From positions 62,001 through 126,000 of the forward strand of contig CAIOTF010000023.1 in the NCBI GenBank assembly GCA_903861125.1: a stretch of DNA of 64,000 nucleotides, read 5' to 3'. Source of the stretch: an uncultured Ignavibacteriota bacterium (GTDB taxonomy: Bacteria > Bacteroidota > Ignavibacteria > UBA10030 > UBA8401). The notes beneath the pieces were generated by a model. It made no database searches and was not told the origin of the DNA. It was given only the letters and a program-made list of their open reading frames with translations. Both the position numbers and the translations under genes were made by a program. This document shows, one piece after another, positions 3,701 through 59,561 of the stretch (positions are counted from its first letter, which is position 1; each line of letters starts with the position of its first letter).

Positions 3701-6700
3701 CCCCGATGGATGCATCGGTCATTTTAATAATAAGGCGATGAGTTCCAACCTGTGCCACCGTCGGCGTCCACGATAATTGACCTGATAGTGTGATCCCCGC
3801 ACCATTCGGTGCTTCAACAACGGTGAATGTCAGGGTGTCGTTGTCGGGATCCTGGCCAGTAAAAGTAAATTTTGTGTTCAGGCCTGGTTCGGTGTATGTT
3901 GTTTCCGGAATCACGAGTGTAAAAGATGGCGGCCGGTTCACATTCCTTACGGTGATATTTGTCTGCTTGCTAACATAACCGCCGTTAATATCAATAGCTG
4001 CAACAACAAAACTATATGATCCGGATTGACTGAAGTTCGGTTTCCAACTTAAAATTCCCGAGATCGAATCGATCAACATCCCCGACGGCGCATTAAGAAA
4101 ATAATATTTTACCGGATCATTGTCGGGATCGGAAGCATTGTAATCAAACGATAATTGCTGATCTTCGTTGAGCGTTGTATCTCCCATGACACTCGTGAAG
4201 ACGGGAGGATGATTGTTATTAAGAACGGTGATCGCTGTCTGCCGGCTGACAAGGCCGCCGTTGTTATCCTTTGCGAAGATGGTAAAACTATGATTTCCAA
4301 TCTGGATAAGAGCTGGCGTCCATTTCATCAAACCGGAAGCGGTGTCGATTGTCATGCCGGGCGGCGCGTTCTGCAGAAAGAATGTGACCGCATCATTATC
4401 AGGATCGGATGCATTATAGTCAAACGTTAATTGCTCTCCTTTGTTGACCGTTGTATCTCCCATAACATTCGTAAAGACGGGGGATTGATTATTATTGAGC
4501 ACGGTGATAGCGGTCTGCCGGCTGACGTTACCGCCGTTGGCATCCTTTGCGAAGATAACGAAACTGTAGTTTCCCGATTGGCTAGTGCCGGGGACCCACT
4601 TCATTATGCCGTTTGTACTGTCGATCGCCATTCCTGCAGGTGCATTTTGCAGAAAATATTTGATCGCATCATTATCAGGATCGGTAGCATTGTAATCAAA
4701 CGTTAATTGCTGTAATTCGCTCACCGTTGTATCCGCCATAATGGCGGTAAATATCGGCGGGCGGTTCGTGTTCAGCACAGCAATATTGGTCTGTTTCGAA
4801 ACACTGCCCCCTTTTCCATCTACAACTGAAACGGTGATCGTATAATTTCCTGATTGCGTGAAACCGGGTTTCCATTTCAAAATACCGGTGATGGAATCGA
4901 TCGTCATTCCTGATGGTTGATTTTGTACCGCATAGAAAAGTGTATTGCCATCGGCATCAAACGCATCGTAATCAAATGTTAATTGCTGATCTTCGCTGAT
5001 CGTTGTATCCGCCATTGCGTTCGTGAACAGCGGGTTATTGTTCAGCGACGAAATGACGGTGATCTTACCATTCTTCAGCGTAACCAACGGCTGCAGCGGA
5101 CCCGGTTCATTATTTTGATATTCAATAAATGTCAAAGATGAAAATTGTCCGTTGCCGGAAGGGGCCTTATGGTGAAAGCGAAGCTTAGCAAAGATTCCCG
5201 ATCCGGAAAGTGGAAGTGTGCCGGAGAGTGCCAAACGAATAACAGATCCTGAATCATTGACGGCAGATATCATTCCGCTGCTCATCGTTCCCGCCGTGAT
5301 CAATTGCGAAAAACGGACTTTTGCTGAGTCATAACCTATTTTTATCTGTGCGGACAAAATACCAAGGCCGGTAACATCGCTGAGATAGATCGGCACATCC
5401 ACCGAGTCACCAATCCGAACGGTTGTATCGGGTAGAGTGGCTGAAAAATCATTCACCGATATCGTAAGACTGCCGTCGAATTTTTGAGAATCAAATGCCG
5501 ATAAAATGAATGAACCTCTTGATTTCGCCGTAACTTTTCCTGTCAAGGAATCCACAACAGCCTTTAGCGTATCGGATGAATACCAAGTGTACGGTGGGGA
5601 TCCGCCCGAGGCAGTATATGTTAACGCATTTCCGCGGGTCAGCATGTAAACATTTGGACTGATAGAGATGACCGGTCCGGATTTTGGTGTGAATATTGCA
5701 TTATCAATAGCCGCTGTGATTGTTTCATTAAAGAGCACATTCTGCAGATCGAGATTTGAACTTTGGTATGCAAATCGATTCACCTGAAAACGAACAAACG
5801 CCAAAATTCCGTTGCCGGTAAGAGTATCCGTTCCTGCCATTGCTACTTCGACCGTTCCCGTCCCAATATTCACGGTTGGCGTGCCCCATGCGTGCGCTAT
5901 AGTACCAGCAGTAATCACACTTTTCGCAATAAGCGTCGCGGAATTGTAATTCAACTTCCATTGTGCGGAGACGATGCCCAGCGATGTTACATCGGAAACA
6001 TAGATGGGAAGATCGAACGTGAGATTCTGCATGAATGATGTATCGCGGACCGAGATGGTGAGACTGTTCAGCGACGGCGAATTAATCTGAAATACATTCG
6101 ATTGATCTTGCAGTCCGAACGAATCCGTCACCTTTGCATACGTTGATCCGACTTTTTTCCCGGTCAATTTTCCCGATGCATTGATGACAGCAACAGACGT
6201 ATCGCCGACACTCCAAAACAATGGCGGCGTCACATCACCGCTCACCGAAAAGAAGATCGAGTCGCCGACAACTTTGTTCTGCGGAGGAAACTTCGGACTG
6301 ATGAAAATATCCATCGGACGAAATGAACCATTGCTTACCGCTACCGACGGTGTTCCTTCGTTCAGCAACGCACCTGAAAGACTAACCGTTTCGGTAACAC
6401 CGGGGAACGCAGAGGCATTAACGGCGACTGTAAGATAGATCAGCACACCTTTTCCGGTAATTGGCTGTGCATTTGCAAAAACGAATTTTTTTGTTGCATT
6501 GTTAAAAAATATATATTGAGCCTTGCCGAGCATCGTTCCGTTTGTATCGATGCCGGTCACGGTAAATACATTGTTCGTTGCGACTGTAAATTCACCGGAA
6601 ATAACGGAGTCGGCAGTTTTCAATGAATCGTCGCAATAGATCGGATAAGAGTATGTTACACCTCGTTTTCCAAATCCATTTTGTAAACGGAGATGAACTA

Positions 6701-16140: not shown

Positions 16141-19100
16141 TTAATTGCTCCTGCCGATCGATTCATAATACCGACGGATGAGCTCAATGTAATCCTTACT
16201 GTAGCCGGATTCCTGAGCGCGCTGCAAGTCTTTTTGCAATTGCGATTCGTTCGTTTTTACAGAAAGCGGCGCGGGATTCCTGCCGAACACATTGGTGCCG
16301 GAGGATGCCTTCCGTTTTTGCTCATAATCACGCTCGCGCATGGAGCGCTGAGCCTGTAACAGGCGCGACAAAATCCGTTCCTGCTGCTGGAGTGTGTTCG
16401 GATTTATCTGGTTTTGCTGCAGGTGTTCCACAACCTCTTTCATCTCGTCGGCGATCTTATCAAGGTCCCCCATCACTTTACTTTTTTCCGGCGAAACCTG
16501 TGATTCACGCTGCAGTTGTTCCAGTGATTTTCTGACCGCATCCTGCTGACGGGCAAGCCTTCCCATCTCCTGCATCTGCTGCTGCGACATCCCTTCCTGT
16601 GCACCAATCTGCTGCGTTTGTCCGTTGATCTGCTGCTGCTGCATGGCCATATTGCGCAGTTGCTGCATCAGCGATCCGCCTCCCTGACCTCCCTGCTGCT
16701 GCATTTGCTGCATGGCGCCCTGCATTTGTGTAGCTGCTTTATTCAGCGATGCCATCGCTTCGTTCTGTACAGCGCTGGTTGATTGTCCGTTACGTTGCTC
16801 GATGCCGTTCATCGCCTGCTGCATTTGTCCCATGGCACGACCGATCTGCTTTCCCATCTCCGGTGTCACCACAAATGATTGCTGCGAAAGCTCCATGAGT
16901 GCATTGGCGACATTGTTCAGATCGTTTTGTAAGTTCTGCTGCTGTTGGGCCATTTCGCGAAACTGCTGCGAGTTCGGATCAAGCGAGCGCGATTGATTTT
17001 TCAGCTGTTCCTGTTTTTGGGATATCTGCAGAAGGTCCTGCATCGCTTTTCGCAATGCATTCATCGTTTGCTGCATTTGGTTATTCAGCATCTGTTCCTG
17101 CATTTCAGAGAGCTGCTCCTGCATCTCATTGATGCCGCTGCTGGCCTGCTGCTGCGCCGTCATAGCGCGTTCCATTTGCAACGAGCGCAATTGCTGTGAA
17201 CTTTGTTTTATTGCTTTCTGCATCTCGCGATTGTTCGCCGACTGCTGGGCATTTTCCATTTTTTCCAGCGGCATTTCCTTGGGATACTCTTCCATCTTTT
17301 TTTGAAGATCTTTCAATTCCTTCTGCACTTTCGACAGTTGCTTGTCGATTTCGTCCTGTTTCTGCGCAAGCTCGGTCGCTTTTTGCGAATCACTTTGTTT
17401 TGTTTCTTTCGTCTGCTTATTCACATCATCCTGCGCTTGTTTCATCTGCTGTGTTCGCTTTACCAATTCATCCACTTTCTGTTCGATCTGTATCCGTTTC
17501 AGCAGATTCATAGTCCGTTCAATGCTTTCACGGAACTGCTCTTCGCTGAATTGAGCCTGCTGCATCGCTTCGCGCATCTGTTCCGGCGAAACATTTTTCA
17601 TCGCATCCTGCATCCGTTTCATCGCCTTCTGAAATTCCGGCGAATCCAATTCGCTCAACGTTTTTTGCAGCTCAAGATATTTTTCCAGCGTCTCTTTTGA
17701 CAGCGAATTGTTCTTCTGCAGATTCTGCGACATTTCATCGACTGATTTATTGACATCCTCGATCTTTTTTTGGATCTCTTCGTACCTTTTTGCAATCTCT
17801 TCAGTTTTTTTCTGTTTCTGCCAATCCATCTGTTGATTGCGTTTCATATCATCAGAGAGTTCCTGCAGGTTCTTCTTCAATTCCTGGGATTCTTTCAGTG
17901 ACTCTTCAAGTGTCTTTCCTATCTCGTCGTGTGTCTTGTTGGCATCGGCAAATACCTCTTCCAATGAAGGAAGACGGATCAAGTATGACTGCGTTTTTGC
18001 GGACTTTGGACCGTTCACCGCATCGTTATCAAAGACTTCGGCAAAATACTCCACAACATCTTCCGGCACAAGTCCGAGCAACGAAAGATCCCACAGATAA
18101 TTTAGCACTCCCTCTTTCATCGAGAGCGTATCAAAGGGAATGATTGTTCCGGCTTCTTTCTCACCGGTTGAGTATTTTGACTCAATCAAACGAAATTTCA
18201 AACGAATCTGACTGACACCAAAATCATCCGATACTTTGAATTCCATGGGAAGCATCATCGCTTCCGTAACATCAATATTTTTTCCGGGGGCAAGAATAGA
18301 AATTGCCGGATATTCATCAGTCAGCAGTTCAATGTTGTATACAATGGTGTTTTGACTTGTATTTCCCTTTTCATCTTTCAACTTAATGAAATAGGATGTC
18401 GAGCGCAGCGGGGAAAATTCGGCAGTATAAGAATTTCCGTTCTTTTTCGCCGGAATACCGGATTCATCCTTACATATAACCGCGGCGGAGGCGATCTCTT
18501 TGCTGGGAACGATCGTCCAAACAACTTTCGTACCCGGCAATGCAAGGATATCGCCGATATTTTCTTCCAATGTTTCGCGTCTTAATTTTGTATAGGGGGG
18601 CGGAATTAGCGATACAGTAAGTGAACGCACAAAGGGACGATCCACAACGGTGATAGTGTACCGGTCACTTTTTATTCCGCCGGAGAGAAGGCGATAACCT
18701 GTGTTTTTTTTCAGCGAGGGAAAAAGATATCGGAATTGTCCGGACGAGTCGGGATGAATAATGATATTTTCCGTTACATCAACACCTTCTTCGGAATAGG
18801 AAAGAATCATTTCCGACGGCAGCGGATCTCGACTTTCGCCGGAAACCACTTTTGCCAGAACTGTCACCGATTGTCCTTTTACGATATCAATATTTCCCGG
18901 GGTGACAGTGATATAAAATGCCGCTGCGGGGATAAATTCTTTATCGTAATTAAACATTCTGTTTGCGGCAGCGTGGAACATTGTGCCAGGCATAACCACC
19001 AGTGCCACGATCGTTAATCCAATTACACCAACAATGCGGGCAACCTTTTGCAGTTTAACAAACGAAACAGCATCTGCAAAATTTACGCCTGCCGTACTTC

Positions 19101-47718: not shown

Positions 47719-47750
47719 AAGAACCGTTCACCTGAACGGTTCTTCTGTTT
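47719..47750. terminator. Bidirectional terminator between ALDH and lipoprotein genes
   Basis: A perfect 12-bp stem (47719-47730 and 47733-47744) with a tiny CC loop. It is flanked by TCTGTTTT on the plus strand and TTTGTTTTC on the minus strand. It lies between convergent genes and can serve both. Confidence 0.85.
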
Positions 47751-52639: not shown

Positions 52640-53038
52640 TTACGAATTTGCCTTCCCTTCTTTCAACACTTCGTCTATCGATTGTTTACTCTTTAGAATA
52701 TTCAGGAATTGTGTTTTGGTAAAAAATCCGTCAACGGGAACCATACCGACGGCTTCCTTGATATCTTTCTCAGAATGACCGGAAAGAAAGTAAACAAGCG
52801 TTGTTTTATTCATCGATTTAATGAACCGCAGAGTCACCAGACCGTTCATTCCCTCCATCCCTATATCCAAAAAAACCAGGTTCGGCGAAAAACTTTTCAC
52901 TTTTTGCAGACATTCCTTGCCGGATCTTGCGGTTTCGATCGTCAAACGATTATTCATCATCCTTAGAACAGCTATAATCATAGCTAAGAATGCTTTGTCA
53001 TCATCAACGAGCAGTATTTTGTATGACGGTACGGCCAT
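52640..53038 (-). CDS. Single-domain response regulator
   Basis: 132 residues of receiver domain only: acidic pair in VDDDK (12-16), phospho-Asp in LVFLDIGMEGMNG, Ser in FLSGHS at the Thr position, and the conserved Lys in FFTKTQ. There is no output domain and no neighbouring kinase. It is divergent from the exopolysaccharide operon (229-bp shared region), so it may work as a CheY-like switch or have a link to EPS control, but that is positional only. Confidence 0.88.
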   Translation of the reverse strand: MAVPSYKILLVDDDKAFLAMIIAVLRMMNNRLTIETARSGKECLQKVKSFSPNLVFLDIGMEGMNGLVTLRFIKSMNKTTLVYFLSGHSEKDIKEAVGMVPVDGFFTKTQFLNILKSKQSIDEVLKEGKANS

Positions 53039-53232
53039 AAGGAAAATGCATTCATTGATCTTTGTGCGGTATAATAATCAATTTATTGCTCATAGAAAAT
53101 ATGATATTTTTTAAACGCTACAGCTATTTTTTCATGCTGCTATTCACAGGCATTTCCCCCCTTTCCCGGCCTTCTTCATCGGGTGTTTTACCCCATTCAT
53201 CGAAATAATCCCGAAATAGCGTTTCTGTTGAT

Positions 53233-53268
53233 TATGTTTGTATCACAAAATTTAAGAATACAAACATA
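53233..53268. promoter_or_regulatory. 11-bp inverted repeat at the start of the EPS operon
   Basis: TATGTTTGTAT (53233-53243), a 14-nt spacer, then ATACAAACATA (53258-53268). The right arm runs into the ATG of the sugar-transferase gene. The left arm contains TATGTTTG, which matches the TAnnTTTG -7 box, but no TTG lies at the right distance. It could be an operator for a dimeric regulator or an mRNA hairpin masking the start codon, which has no Shine-Dalgarno sequence. Confidence 0.6.
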
Positions 53269-54017
53269 TGACAACAGCAAAAAGAATTTTTGATATCACC
53301 GTTTCAGGAACAGCACTTCTCTGTCTTGCTCCTGTCATGGCGCTCATCACACTCGCAATAAAATTGGAATCGAAAGGACCTGTCTTCTACGCCGCTCCGC
53401 GTGCGGGAATGGGTTTCAAGCGGTTCAAACTATACAAGTTCCGGACGATGTATTCAGGCGCTGATCAGAAACTGAAAGATCTGGCGCATTTGAATATGTA
53501 CGCTCAGCCGTCCATTACAGAAGAAAACCTGAATGACTGCATCGAGTGCAAAACGCTCGGCACATCCTGTTCTCCGATACTTATTAGTTCGGATGGATCG
53601 ATCATCTGCGAACGGCTGATGAAACTGAAAAACGAAGCAAAGAATGCAGGCACATTCTTCAAGATCGCCAACGATCCGCGCATCACACCGGTCGGTAAAT
53701 TTCTGCGGAATACAAGTCTGGATGAACTTCCGCAGTTTTTCAATGTGTTTATCGGAGACATGTCTCTTGTCGGCAATCGACCTCTTCCCATCTACGAAGC
53801 GGAAAAACTGACGAACGATATTGCGGCAATGCGTTTCGCAGCACCGGCGGGAATCACCGGGTTGTGGCAGGTCACCAAACGGGGCAACAAAGGAGAAATG
53901 TCCGACGAAGAAAGAATTTCGCTGGATAATTCATACGCACTTCACGGTTCGCTCTGGTTCGACATTACATTAATGATCAAGACTGTGCCGGCTCTTTTAC
54001 AAAGCGAAAATGTTTAA
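53268..54017 (+). CDS. Undecaprenyl-phosphate sugar-phosphate transferase (polysaccharide initiation)
   Basis: 249 residues, the short PglC-like monotopic form. It moves a sugar-phosphate from a UDP-sugar to undecaprenyl phosphate, starting the repeat unit. It has [29 protein letters not shown] (re-entrant membrane helix), [43 protein letters not shown] with the catalytic Asp-Glu pair, and AGITGLWQV. Between KFRTM and NDPRIT is an extra stretch of about 45 residues with C91, C94, C101 and C114, which may bind a metal. It is the first gene of the EPS unit. Confidence 0.92.
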
Positions 54018-57285: not shown

Positions 57286-58587
57286 ATGAAAACAGCATTA
57301 TTAAAAAAAATCCAGGATAAAACTTTCGCAGTCGGCGTTGTCGGCCTGGGATATGTCGGTCTTCCGTTGAACCTGTGTTTTGTTGAGAAAGGATTTTCTT
57401 CCGTCGGATTCGACATCGATTCGAAGAAGGTCGATTCCCTGCTGGCCAAACGGTCGTACATCAAACATATTTCGGCAGAGCGGATCGCAAAAGCGATCGA
57501 CAGCACACTGTTCACTGCAACCACGGACTTCTCCAAGATCGGCACCTGCGATGCGGTGCTGATCGCGGTCCCGACCCCGCTGAACAAGAACCGTGAACCG
57601 GAAATGGAGTACATCGTTTCCACTTGTGAATCGATCTATCCGTATCTGCGGAAAGGACAGTTGATCGTACTTGAATCAACCACCTATCCCGGTACGACCG
57701 TTGAGGTGATGATACCGATTCTTGAAAAAAGCGGATTGAAGGCGGACAAGGATTTCTTTGTTGCCTTCTCGCCGGAACGCGAAGATCCGAATAATCCGAA
57801 CTACACGACGGAAACAATCCCGAAAGTTGTCGGAGCAACCTCACCGGACGGATTGGCTGTTGCCGATGCACTGTATTCGCAGATCGTCATCCGCACCGTT
57901 CCTGTTTCGTCCACCCAGGTTGCCGAAGCAACGAAACTAATGGAGAATATCTTCCGTTCCGTGAACATCGCTTTGGTGAACGAACTGAAGGTGACATTCA
58001 TGAAAATGGGAATCGACATATGGGAAGTGATTGAAGCGGCAAAGACAAAGCCGTTCGGTTTCATGCCGTTCTATCCGGGACCGGGTCTCGGCGGACACTG
58101 TATCCCGATCGATCCATTCTATCTGACATGGAAAGCGCGTGAGTTCGGCGTGAACACACGGTTCATCGAACTTGCCGGAGAGATCAATACATCGATGCCG
58201 GATTTCGTGATCCAGCGCGTGATGGAAGCATTGAATGAAAACGGCAAACCGCTGAAAGGATCGAAGATCCTTCTTCTCGGTCTGGCGTACAAAGCCAATG
58301 TTGACGATGACCGCGAATCACCGAGCTATTTCCTGATGGAAAAACTCGAAGCCAAAGGTGCGACCGTTGAATATAACGATCCCCATGTTCCGGTCATCAG
58401 ACCGACACGTGAGCATCCGCAGTTCATCGGAAAGAAAAGTGTGGAGATCAGCAACCAGTACGATCTTATTCTTATCTCCACGGCTCATAACGAATACTCA
58501 TCCATCGACTTTGCAAAATTATCCATCCCCGTTGTTGATACGCGCAATGTCGTAAAGACTGCTTCACCGCTGATCTACAAAGCCTGA
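57286..58587 (+). CDS. UDP-N-acetyl-hexosamine 6-dehydrogenase (WbpA/TviB/WecC-like)
   Basis: 433 residues. It is a UDP-sugar dehydrogenase of the HexNAc branch, oxidising C6 of UDP-GlcNAc or UDP-ManNAc. It has VGVVGLGYVGLPL (15-27), AVPTPLNKNREPEM, LESTTYPGTT, SPEREDPNN, and the catalytic Cys272 in GPGLGGHCIPIDPFYL, whose GGHCIP form marks this branch as opposed to Ugd. VDDDRESPSYFLMEKL lies later. The substrate cannot be fixed from the sequence alone. It is the last gene before a strong terminator. Confidence 0.92.
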   Translation: MKTALLKKIQDKTFAVGVVGLGYVGLPLNLCFVEKGFSSVGFDIDSKKVDSLLAKRSYIKHISAERIAKAIDSTLFTATTDFSKIGTCDAVLIAVPTPLNKNREPEMEYIVSTCESIYPYLRKGQLIVLESTTYPGTTVEVMIPILEKSGLKADKDFFVAFSPEREDPNNPNYTTETIPKVVGATSPDGLAVADALYSQIVIRTVPVSSTQVAEATKLMENIFRSVNIALVNELKVTFMKMGIDIWEVIEAAKTKPFGFMPFYPGPGLGGHCIPIDPFYLTWKAREFGVNTRFIELAGEINTSMPDFVIQRVMEALNENGKPLKGSKILLLGLAYKANVDDDRESPSYFLMEKLEAKGATVEYNDPHVPVIRPTREHPQFIGKKSVEISNQYDLILISTAHNEYSSIDFAKLSIPVVDTRNVVKTASPLIYKA

Positions 58588-58613: not shown

Positions 58614-58653
58614 TGTCCACCGAAGAACATAAAACTTCGGTGGACATTTTTTT
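58614..58653 (+). terminator. Strong intrinsic terminator after the UDP-HexNAc dehydrogenase gene
   Basis: A perfect 12-bp stem (58614-58625 TGTCCACCGAAG, 58635-58646 CTTCGGTGGACA) with a 9-nt loop, followed directly by seven T residues. It separates the sugar-nucleotide unit from the export unit, so the second needs its own promoter. Confidence 0.93.
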
Positions 58654-58877
58654 AAATGGGAACAGTGTTCTCCTTTCCCATAGCTAACCTGCTGAAACCC
58701 TTGAGTTTTTCCTATGACGTTTTTCGGCGTTCTATAGTCGATTTTCGCCCTCCGAAGAGCCGTTTATTCAACCCTTTGCCGACCGTGTTCATCGAGTAAT
58801 CCCTCTAATTCATCGAGTTTTTACAGAAATCGCTGATTTTCGAGGTATTTTCATAGCATTAAAATACAGAAGAGACT
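58654..58877 (+). promoter_or_regulatory. Upstream region of the export unit with spaced direct repeats
   Basis: 224 bp without a gene. TTCATCGAGT occurs at 58788-58797 and again at 58809-58818, exactly 21 bp apart (two DNA turns), and TCGAG recurs at 58840-58844. ATTTTCG occurs near 58741 and 58836. I found no clear TAnnTTTG or sigma54 -24/-12 element. It is a likely regulator-binding region for the operon starting at 58878. Confidence 0.45.
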
Positions 58878-59561
58878 ATGAAAAATTTATTAAGCACAAT
58901 GATCCTTTTTGCAACAATGCTCCGGGCTTCAAGTCCGGACAGTGTATCCATCGGTTTTACACTTCCTCCGTTATCCGTTGTTCAGGAGGCTGCCATAAAG
59001 AATAGTCCTGTCCTGAAACGGGAATCCGCTTCGATGAAAATGAGAGAGCAGGAACTGAACATGACAAAAAAAGAATGGCTGCGGAGCTTTTCGCTTGAAG
59101 GATCGACGCAATACGGTTCATACGGTGATCAGTCCGTGAATAAACTCTACCTCGGTAATCGTGTCGGAGCTTCGGTGAGGATCTCGCTGGAAGAGATCTT
59201 TTCTTACGGATCAAAATCAGAAAAAGCGGAAGCAAACATTGTTATGGCGGAATACAATCAGAAAACACTGGAGCGGGAACTGCGCGAAGTGATCACATCA
59301 CACTATGTAAAGATACAGACCACCATCCGCCTTGTTGAGATCGCAATGCAGGGATACAATAATTCGTCGATTGCAAAACAGAATGCCGAATTGAAATTCC
59401 AATCCGGAGAAATGCCGGTGTACGATTACAGCCGCATCCTGGATTTACTCACCACCGCTTCGATGACGCTGGAACGGACCCGCGGAGAACTTCAACTGGA
59501 GTGGATGGTGCTGGAAGAGATCGTCGGCTCTCCGCTGAATTCGTTAGGGAGCAAACAATGA
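58878..59561 (+). CDS. Half-length TolC-like outer membrane protein
   Basis: 227 residues with AGAAGAG upstream and a signal peptide (about 1-18). It matches one repeat of the outer membrane efflux family: LSVVQEAAIKNSPVLKRESASMKMREQEL, a middle beta-hairpin segment (FSLEGSTQYGS...GASVRISLEEIFSYGSK), then long helices (AEYNQKTLERELREVITSHYVKIQ and so on). TolC proteins carry two such repeats in about 450 residues; this one has one. The stop overlaps the next start (ATGA), so no second half has been lost to a frameshift just downstream. It could be the outer membrane conduit for the polysaccharide, perhaps as a hexamer (inference). Confidence 0.7.
   Translation: MKNLLSTMILFATMLRASSPDSVSIGFTLPPLSVVQEAAIKNSPVLKRESASMKMREQELNMTKKEWLRSFSLEGSTQYGSYGDQSVNKLYLGNRVGASVRISLEEIFSYGSKSEKAEANIVMAEYNQKTLERELREVITSHYVKIQTTIRLVEIAMQGYNNSSIAKQNAELKFQSGEMPVYDYSRILDLLTTASMTLERTRGELQLEWMVLEEIVGSPLNSLGSKQ

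Follow-up and report, generated by a model that had tools for sequence, protein, structure and literature searches.

The left arm of a perfect dyad at an EPS start codon coincides with the core box of a probable LytTR-activated promoter in an uncultured Ignavibacteriota bacterium

The analysed window is a 64,000-nucleotide stretch of contig C23 from the genome of an uncultured Ignavibacteriota bacterium (G000); positions without a contig prefix refer to this window. The first gene of its EPS operon, EPS1 (53268-54017, plus strand), was assigned by profile match as a bacterial sugar transferase of 249 aa (PF02397, E 1.5e-58), and no alternative in-frame start occurs between the upstream in-frame stop and the EPS1 ATG. 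Divergent from the operon, on the minus strand at 52640-53038, lies a gene for a stand-alone receiver-domain protein (PF00072) whose start region aligns in the related genome G004. Further along the plus strand, EPS2 (58878-59561) was assigned by profile match to the outer membrane efflux (OEP) family, and the ORF after it is of chain-length type (Wzc-like), with a weak GNVR match below the cut-off of that profile.

The EPS1 dyad is composed of a left arm, TATGTTTGTAT (53233-53243), and a right arm, ATACAAACATA (53258-53268), which were found by repeat search on the plus strand to be complementary at 11 of 11 positions with 14 nt between them. The A of the EPS1 ATG, at 53268, is the last base of the right arm. 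An earlier note had described this perfect 11-bp dyad ending on the A of the start codon and a gene lacking a Shine-Dalgarno sequence; both descriptions were confirmed, the dyad at 53233-53268 and the lack of any Shine-Dalgarno-like stretch in AAATTTAAGAATACAAACAT, the 20 nt preceding the ATG. An outer arm, CTGTTG at 53225-53230 (plus strand), pairs with CAACAG at 53271-53276 in the predicted fold only. Neither a terminator nor a plus-strand promoter call was found at the dyad, and its reading as an intrinsic terminator or a sigma70 consensus promoter was rejected.

Perfect dyads of at least 11 bp with loops of 3-30 numbered 4 in the window, where 20 dinucleotide shuffles averaged 0.3. When the 130 bp around the EPS1 dyad were shuffled 20000 times, 63 of the shuffled sequences contained such a dyad (p ~0.003). 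The EPS1 dyad is locally unusual; a window scanned whole gives one by chance in about one of every 3-4 cases. Elsewhere in the window, a terminator-like perfect 12-bp inverted repeat with a loop of 9 (TGTCCACCGAAG, 58614-58646) follows an ORF ending at 58587, a perfect 11-bp hairpin (AAGAACCGTTC, 47719-47744) lying between the ends (47711 and 47750) of two convergent ORFs is probably their shared terminator, and a perfect 11-bp inverted repeat with a 20-nt loop (CAAATATTGTT) was observed at 2384-2425.

Upstream of the dyad, at 53175-53202, the sequence reads TTCATCG-N14-TTCATCG with a period of 21 bp. The pair consists of repeat 1 (core 53175-53181, 9-mer frame 53171-53179, plus strand) and repeat 2 (core 53196-53202, 9-mer frame 53192-53200, CCCATTCAT, plus strand), of which repeat 2 resembles YpdB and AlgR sites; the pair is invariant in all four EPS1 orthologues and recurs at other EPS promoters. 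The core box TATGTTTG (53233-53240, plus strand), which makes up most of the left arm, starts exactly 30 bp past repeat 2, as it also does in non-homologous promoters, and can be taken as a TAnnTTTG -7 type element or as the -10 hexamer TATGTT. In the alignment, GTTTGTATCA at the left arm is kept in the four orthologues like the repeat pair, with the core box of G012 EPS1 lying 1 bp nearer to the repeats. An exact second copy of the repeat pair is found at the EPS2 promoter (58788-58815, plus strand), where the core box TATTTTCA (58846-58853, plus strand), which departs from TAnnTTTG, again lies 30 bp past repeat 2 and the predicted start is at 58858.

Four exact copies of the repeat pair are present in the 4.19 Mb genome, all of them on the plus strand of C23. 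Three of the copies are promoters: those of EPS1 (53175) and EPS2 (58788), and one at C23:165875 preceding sugar epimerase and glycosyltransferase-type ORFs. The fourth exact TTCATCG-N14-TTCATCG, at 17597-17624, has no core box 30 bp on and is probably outside the regulon. Adding the box to the search pattern brought in C23:127741 (glycosyltransferase 2, 1.7 kb beyond the window) and C16:27019 (methyltransferase), and all five promoters of the genome carry a TAtkTT box exactly 30 bp past repeat 2. The repeat pair alone, at up to 2 mismatches, was found at 199 places in this genome (9 in the backwards control), from which the 20 places with 0 or 1 mismatch were inspected along with the 2-mismatch C23:127741, which has the box. 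Repeat 2 plus box, at up to 3 mismatches, gave 39 places versus 12 backwards, and beyond the known promoters nothing was separable from noise.

With the pattern repeat-N30-TANNTTTG at up to 2 mismatches, five promoters were recovered in the genome itself and none with the pattern run backwards; extended to 98 genomes of the order, the search returned 24 places, spread over 13 of the genomes, with a single place in the backwards control. Sixteen of the 24 fall in five genomes (five in G000, four each in G004 and G007, two in G012 and one in G002), and the other eight are distributed one each over 8 further genomes. The genes behind the promoters encode a sugar transferase, an OEP export protein, a glycosyltransferase 2, a sugar epimerase and a methyltransferase. 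Among the 46 columns unused by the search pattern, five are invariant in all five promoters of G000, with 0.34 expected. When profiles on those columns were trained without the gene family under test, all 16 promoters scored above 0 (0.3 to 24.8, with G000 EPS3 at 0.3 and G002 at 0.4 barely positive) and the 8 others scored -15 or less. Outside the 16-promoter profile are a 2-mismatch site of the comparison set (G014_C46) and a 3-mismatch site tested afterwards (G012_C65); the 3-mismatch G012 site, which lies before OEP/chain-length-type ORFs (families assigned by eye), scored 6.0 to 14.3.

The identity of the core box bears on where transcription would begin. According to passages of PMC9723704 and PMC6847099, the flavobacterial TAnnTTTG element spans -12 to -5 and a G at -9 is nearly absent from F. 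johnsoniae promoters. TATGTTTG at 53233-53240 fits the TAnnTTTG of the Bacteroidota sigma-A -7 element, but differs from the -7 promoters in those passages in having a G at -9, no -33 element and no enrichment of the box in the window; the sigma-A criterion allows no G at -10 or -9. Upstream of window genes, TANNTTTG was found 3 times in sense and 2 times in antisense among 20 regions, and a general promoter role for TAnnTTTG in this genome was rejected for this lack of enrichment. Because of the G at -9 and the missing enrichment, the box may instead be a -10 element of sigma70 type. By analogy with the flavobacterial spacing, transcription is predicted to start at the A at 53245 (plus strand), and TATGTT read as a sigma70 -10 would place the start at the same nucleotide. 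The left arm then occupies -12 to -2, and the predicted leader (53245-53267, plus strand) is 23 nt long and without a Shine-Dalgarno sequence; the leaders from the predicted starts of EPS2 and EPS3 are 20 nt each.

This layout bears directly on the mRNA hairpin which, according to the earlier note, would block translation or transcription of the transferase. In its translational form, such a hairpin would close the EPS1 start codon. A transcript folded from 53231 is structured in G000, G004 and G007 (z -2.9, -3.8 and -2.6), EPS1 lacks a Shine-Dalgarno sequence, a compensatory T-A to A-T change is present in the arms of G004, and the EPS2 dyad likewise extends to its own ATG, all of which speak for such a hairpin. 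However, the left arm coincides with a box whose distance to the repeats stays constant among unrelated promoters, so transcription should begin past the left arm; with a start at about 53245 that arm is outside the mRNA and the hairpin could not form. From the predicted start no structure was predicted in any of the four orthologues (z ~0 to 0.5), G012 gave z 0.2 even from 53231, and the pairs are weakly conserved (equally high values in 27 of 500 shuffles). If the box is a -10/-7 element, the left arm is predicted to be untranscribed, and translational control through the hairpin is considered quite unlikely.

The arms were compared in the four EPS1 orthologues with upstream DNA (G000, G004, G007 and G012), whose EPS1 proteins are identical to that of G000 at 90% over the first 120 residues (G004), 81% (G007) and 76% (G012). 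The right arm pairs over 11 bp in G004, including the compensatory change, over 9 bp in G007 and is broken in G012; it is retained within the genus but has been lost in a sister genus, and most sister promoters have no such arm. Conservation in relatives, which the earlier note had proposed as a check, held for GTTTGTATCA at the left arm in 4 of 4 and for the right arm in G004 and mostly in G007, but failed for the right arm in G012. Two pairs show double changes in the four sequences; with so few sequences this count does not decide the matter, the covariation being reached in 27 of 500 shuffles.

EPS2 carries a dyad of its own, TTTTCATAG / CTATGAAAA (58848-58884, plus strand), which joins the EPS2 core box to the start codon, its right arm lying over the ATG at 58878. 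Its sequence is unrelated to that of the EPS1 dyad and identical in G004, and G007 EPS2 has a different dyad of 8 bp. Compared with shuffled leaders, the arm match was improbable at G000 EPS1 (p 0.003), G000 EPS2 (p 0.0065) and G007 EPS2 (p 0.02), and unremarkable at the G000 C16, X and EPS3 promoters (p 0.15 to 0.89). Judged by these values, two promoters of a single cluster show a mildly surprising symmetry and the others show none.

The earlier note had also allowed for a protein bound to the dyad, and the dyad might accordingly be the operator of a second, dimeric regulator covering the EPS1 core promoter and start codon. Perfect 11-bp arms, their persistence in G004 with a compensatory change and over 9 bp in G007, the local p of ~0.003 and the dyad at the EPS2 start codon are consistent with such an operator. 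The dyad nevertheless does not recur: the genome scan suggested in the earlier note returned one place only in 4.19 Mb, whereby the dyad as a repeated operator was rejected, and the dyad is lost in G012. The dyads of EPS2 and C16 differ in sequence, no dyad of note was seen at EPS3 and X, and a significant one is missing from most sister promoters. A second operator is thus judged unlikely. At up to 2 mismatches, GTTTGTATCANAAAAT was found at 33 places (21 forward and 12 reverse; 2 and 8 in the backwards control), among which the EPS1 and C16 promoters were recognised as regulon members. The dyad as the LytTR site itself was rejected, since its arms are unlike the recurring TTCATCG repeats, though LytTR sites may be inverse.

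Under a further reading, the two arms are facing core boxes that would serve the EPS operon and the leftward receiver gene (52640-53038), respectively, and at which polymerases would be mutually exclusive. Each arm is TATGTTTG on its own strand, G004 has TAAGTTTG on both, and by inspection the start of the receiver gene can be made out upstream in G004, and G012, with a differing upstream sequence, has lost the right arm. Against this, the minus strand has no -35/-33 element at the right place (by inspection), G007 retains the minus-strand box only in part, and the leader of the receiver gene would exceed 200 nt. Facing boxes are accordingly regarded as very improbable. An equally slight chance is given to a gene-specific inverted repeat that, at EPS1 and EPS2, pairs the core box with the start-codon region as a second control layer over the LytTR switch. 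If true, such a layer, working at the level of DNA strands or of longer read-through transcripts, would tie promoter opening to translation start.

The symmetry of the arms is rather likely to have arisen by chance, or by template-switch mutation at a quasi-palindrome, and to have no function of its own, which is compatible with LytTR control of the promoter. About 0.3 such dyads are expected per window, mean arm matches under the null were mostly 4 to 6 bp, the box being T-rich and the leader A-rich so that matches are favoured, and most sister promoters have no significant dyad. The p values at EPS1 and EPS2 of G000 and at EPS2 of G007, together with the compensatory change in G004, argue the other way. 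The symmetry is taken as mostly incidental, with a second control layer as a minority chance.

The likely regulator of these promoters is a REC-LytTR protein (PF00072 and PF04397) encoded on the minus strand at C23:133224-133913, ~7 kb beyond the window end. Within the EPS region the gene follows glycosyltransferase-type ORFs and a large ORF of secreted type, and next to it on the same strand are a receiver gene and a large kinase ORF of PAS type (kinase assigned by eye). PF04397 has four matches in the genome, three of them besides the candidate. Among the 98 genomes, close orthologues (at least 63% identity) are present in four, G000 included, and all four have the promoter; the orthologues are identical to the candidate at 87% in G007, 82% in G012 (inside the EPS locus) and 63% in G002. 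The hypergeometric probability of this co-occurrence is 4e-6, a figure that overstates independence because the genomes are related. A close EPS1 transferase is missing from G002 (best E 1.5e-25), yet this genome holds the regulator as well as a promoter ahead of an ORF of epimerase type. G004 has four promoters and no close LytTR orthologue; its EPS3 contig, C150, stops at 6003, short of the expected position of the regulator gene, so the absence there may be an assembly gap. In a search of solved structures with the regulator, mainly the receiver part was matched among the matches listed (60 of 169).

According to passages of PMC4847170, the sites bound by LytTR response regulators consist of two 9-11 nt repeats with a spacer of 11-13 nt and follow no common consensus. 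In a 9-mer frame, the 16 promoters have a 12-nt spacer and a period of 21, within this two-repeat criterion. The sites resemble the E. coli YpdB site in PyhjX, a direct repeat with a TTCAT core and a period of 21 bp; YpdB binds GGCATTTCAT repeats, and its printed oligonucleotide has a 10-nt motif and an 11-nt gap. They differ in their flanks (GGCATTTCAT versus cCCrTTCATCGAAA here) and target genes (PMC4847170). The passages of PMC4064291 on AlgR, a LytTR regulator of alginate in P. aeruginosa, give CCGTTCGTC as its binding sequence. An exact copy of it lies within repeat 2 of the C16 promoter, and many other repeats read CC(A/G)TTCATC. AlgR likewise links the LytTR family with exopolysaccharide genes, a likeness by sites, whereas the AlgR sites described at algD are far upstream and form no 21-bp tandem (PMC4064291). 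In the LytTR Regulatory Systems, as set out in PMC6193735, direct repeats are mostly 12 bp apart and mostly 10 bp above -35. The 12-nt spacer agrees, and a -35 set 17 bp ahead of the box would lie ~9 bp downstream of the repeat 2 frame, which ends at 53200. In those systems (PMC6193735) a single operon holds the LytTR regulator together with a membrane protein; here a REC-LytTR gene stands with kinase-type and receiver genes.

Taken together, the sequence features indicate that 53175-53268 is probably an activator-dependent promoter of a LytTR-controlled EPS regulon. The two TTCATCG repeats, 21 bp apart, would form the putative binding site of a LytTR-domain response regulator, for which the REC-LytTR protein is the leading candidate. 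Bound just upstream of the would-be -35, this activator would recruit RNA polymerase to TATGTTTG in the left arm, and we infer that transcription would run from ~53245 with a 23-nt leader. The right arm would belong to the leader, its match to the box probably being incidental or kept by a minor second function. The transferase start as a control point, as the earlier note had it, is thus supported through the upstream repeat and the TAtkTTtg box, but not through the dyad.

A LytTR-type activator promoter is of an ordinary kind; the new instance is a probable EPS regulon with a named candidate regulator. Among the open-access papers listed by the searches, none concerned LytTR control of EPS in this group. 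The guess of a one-gene hairpin is replaced by a testable regulon with a defined site, five promoters in its own genome, a candidate regulator and an adjoining kinase-type gene. Such a regulon would place polysaccharide loci that lie scattered in uncultured Ignavibacteria under one signal.
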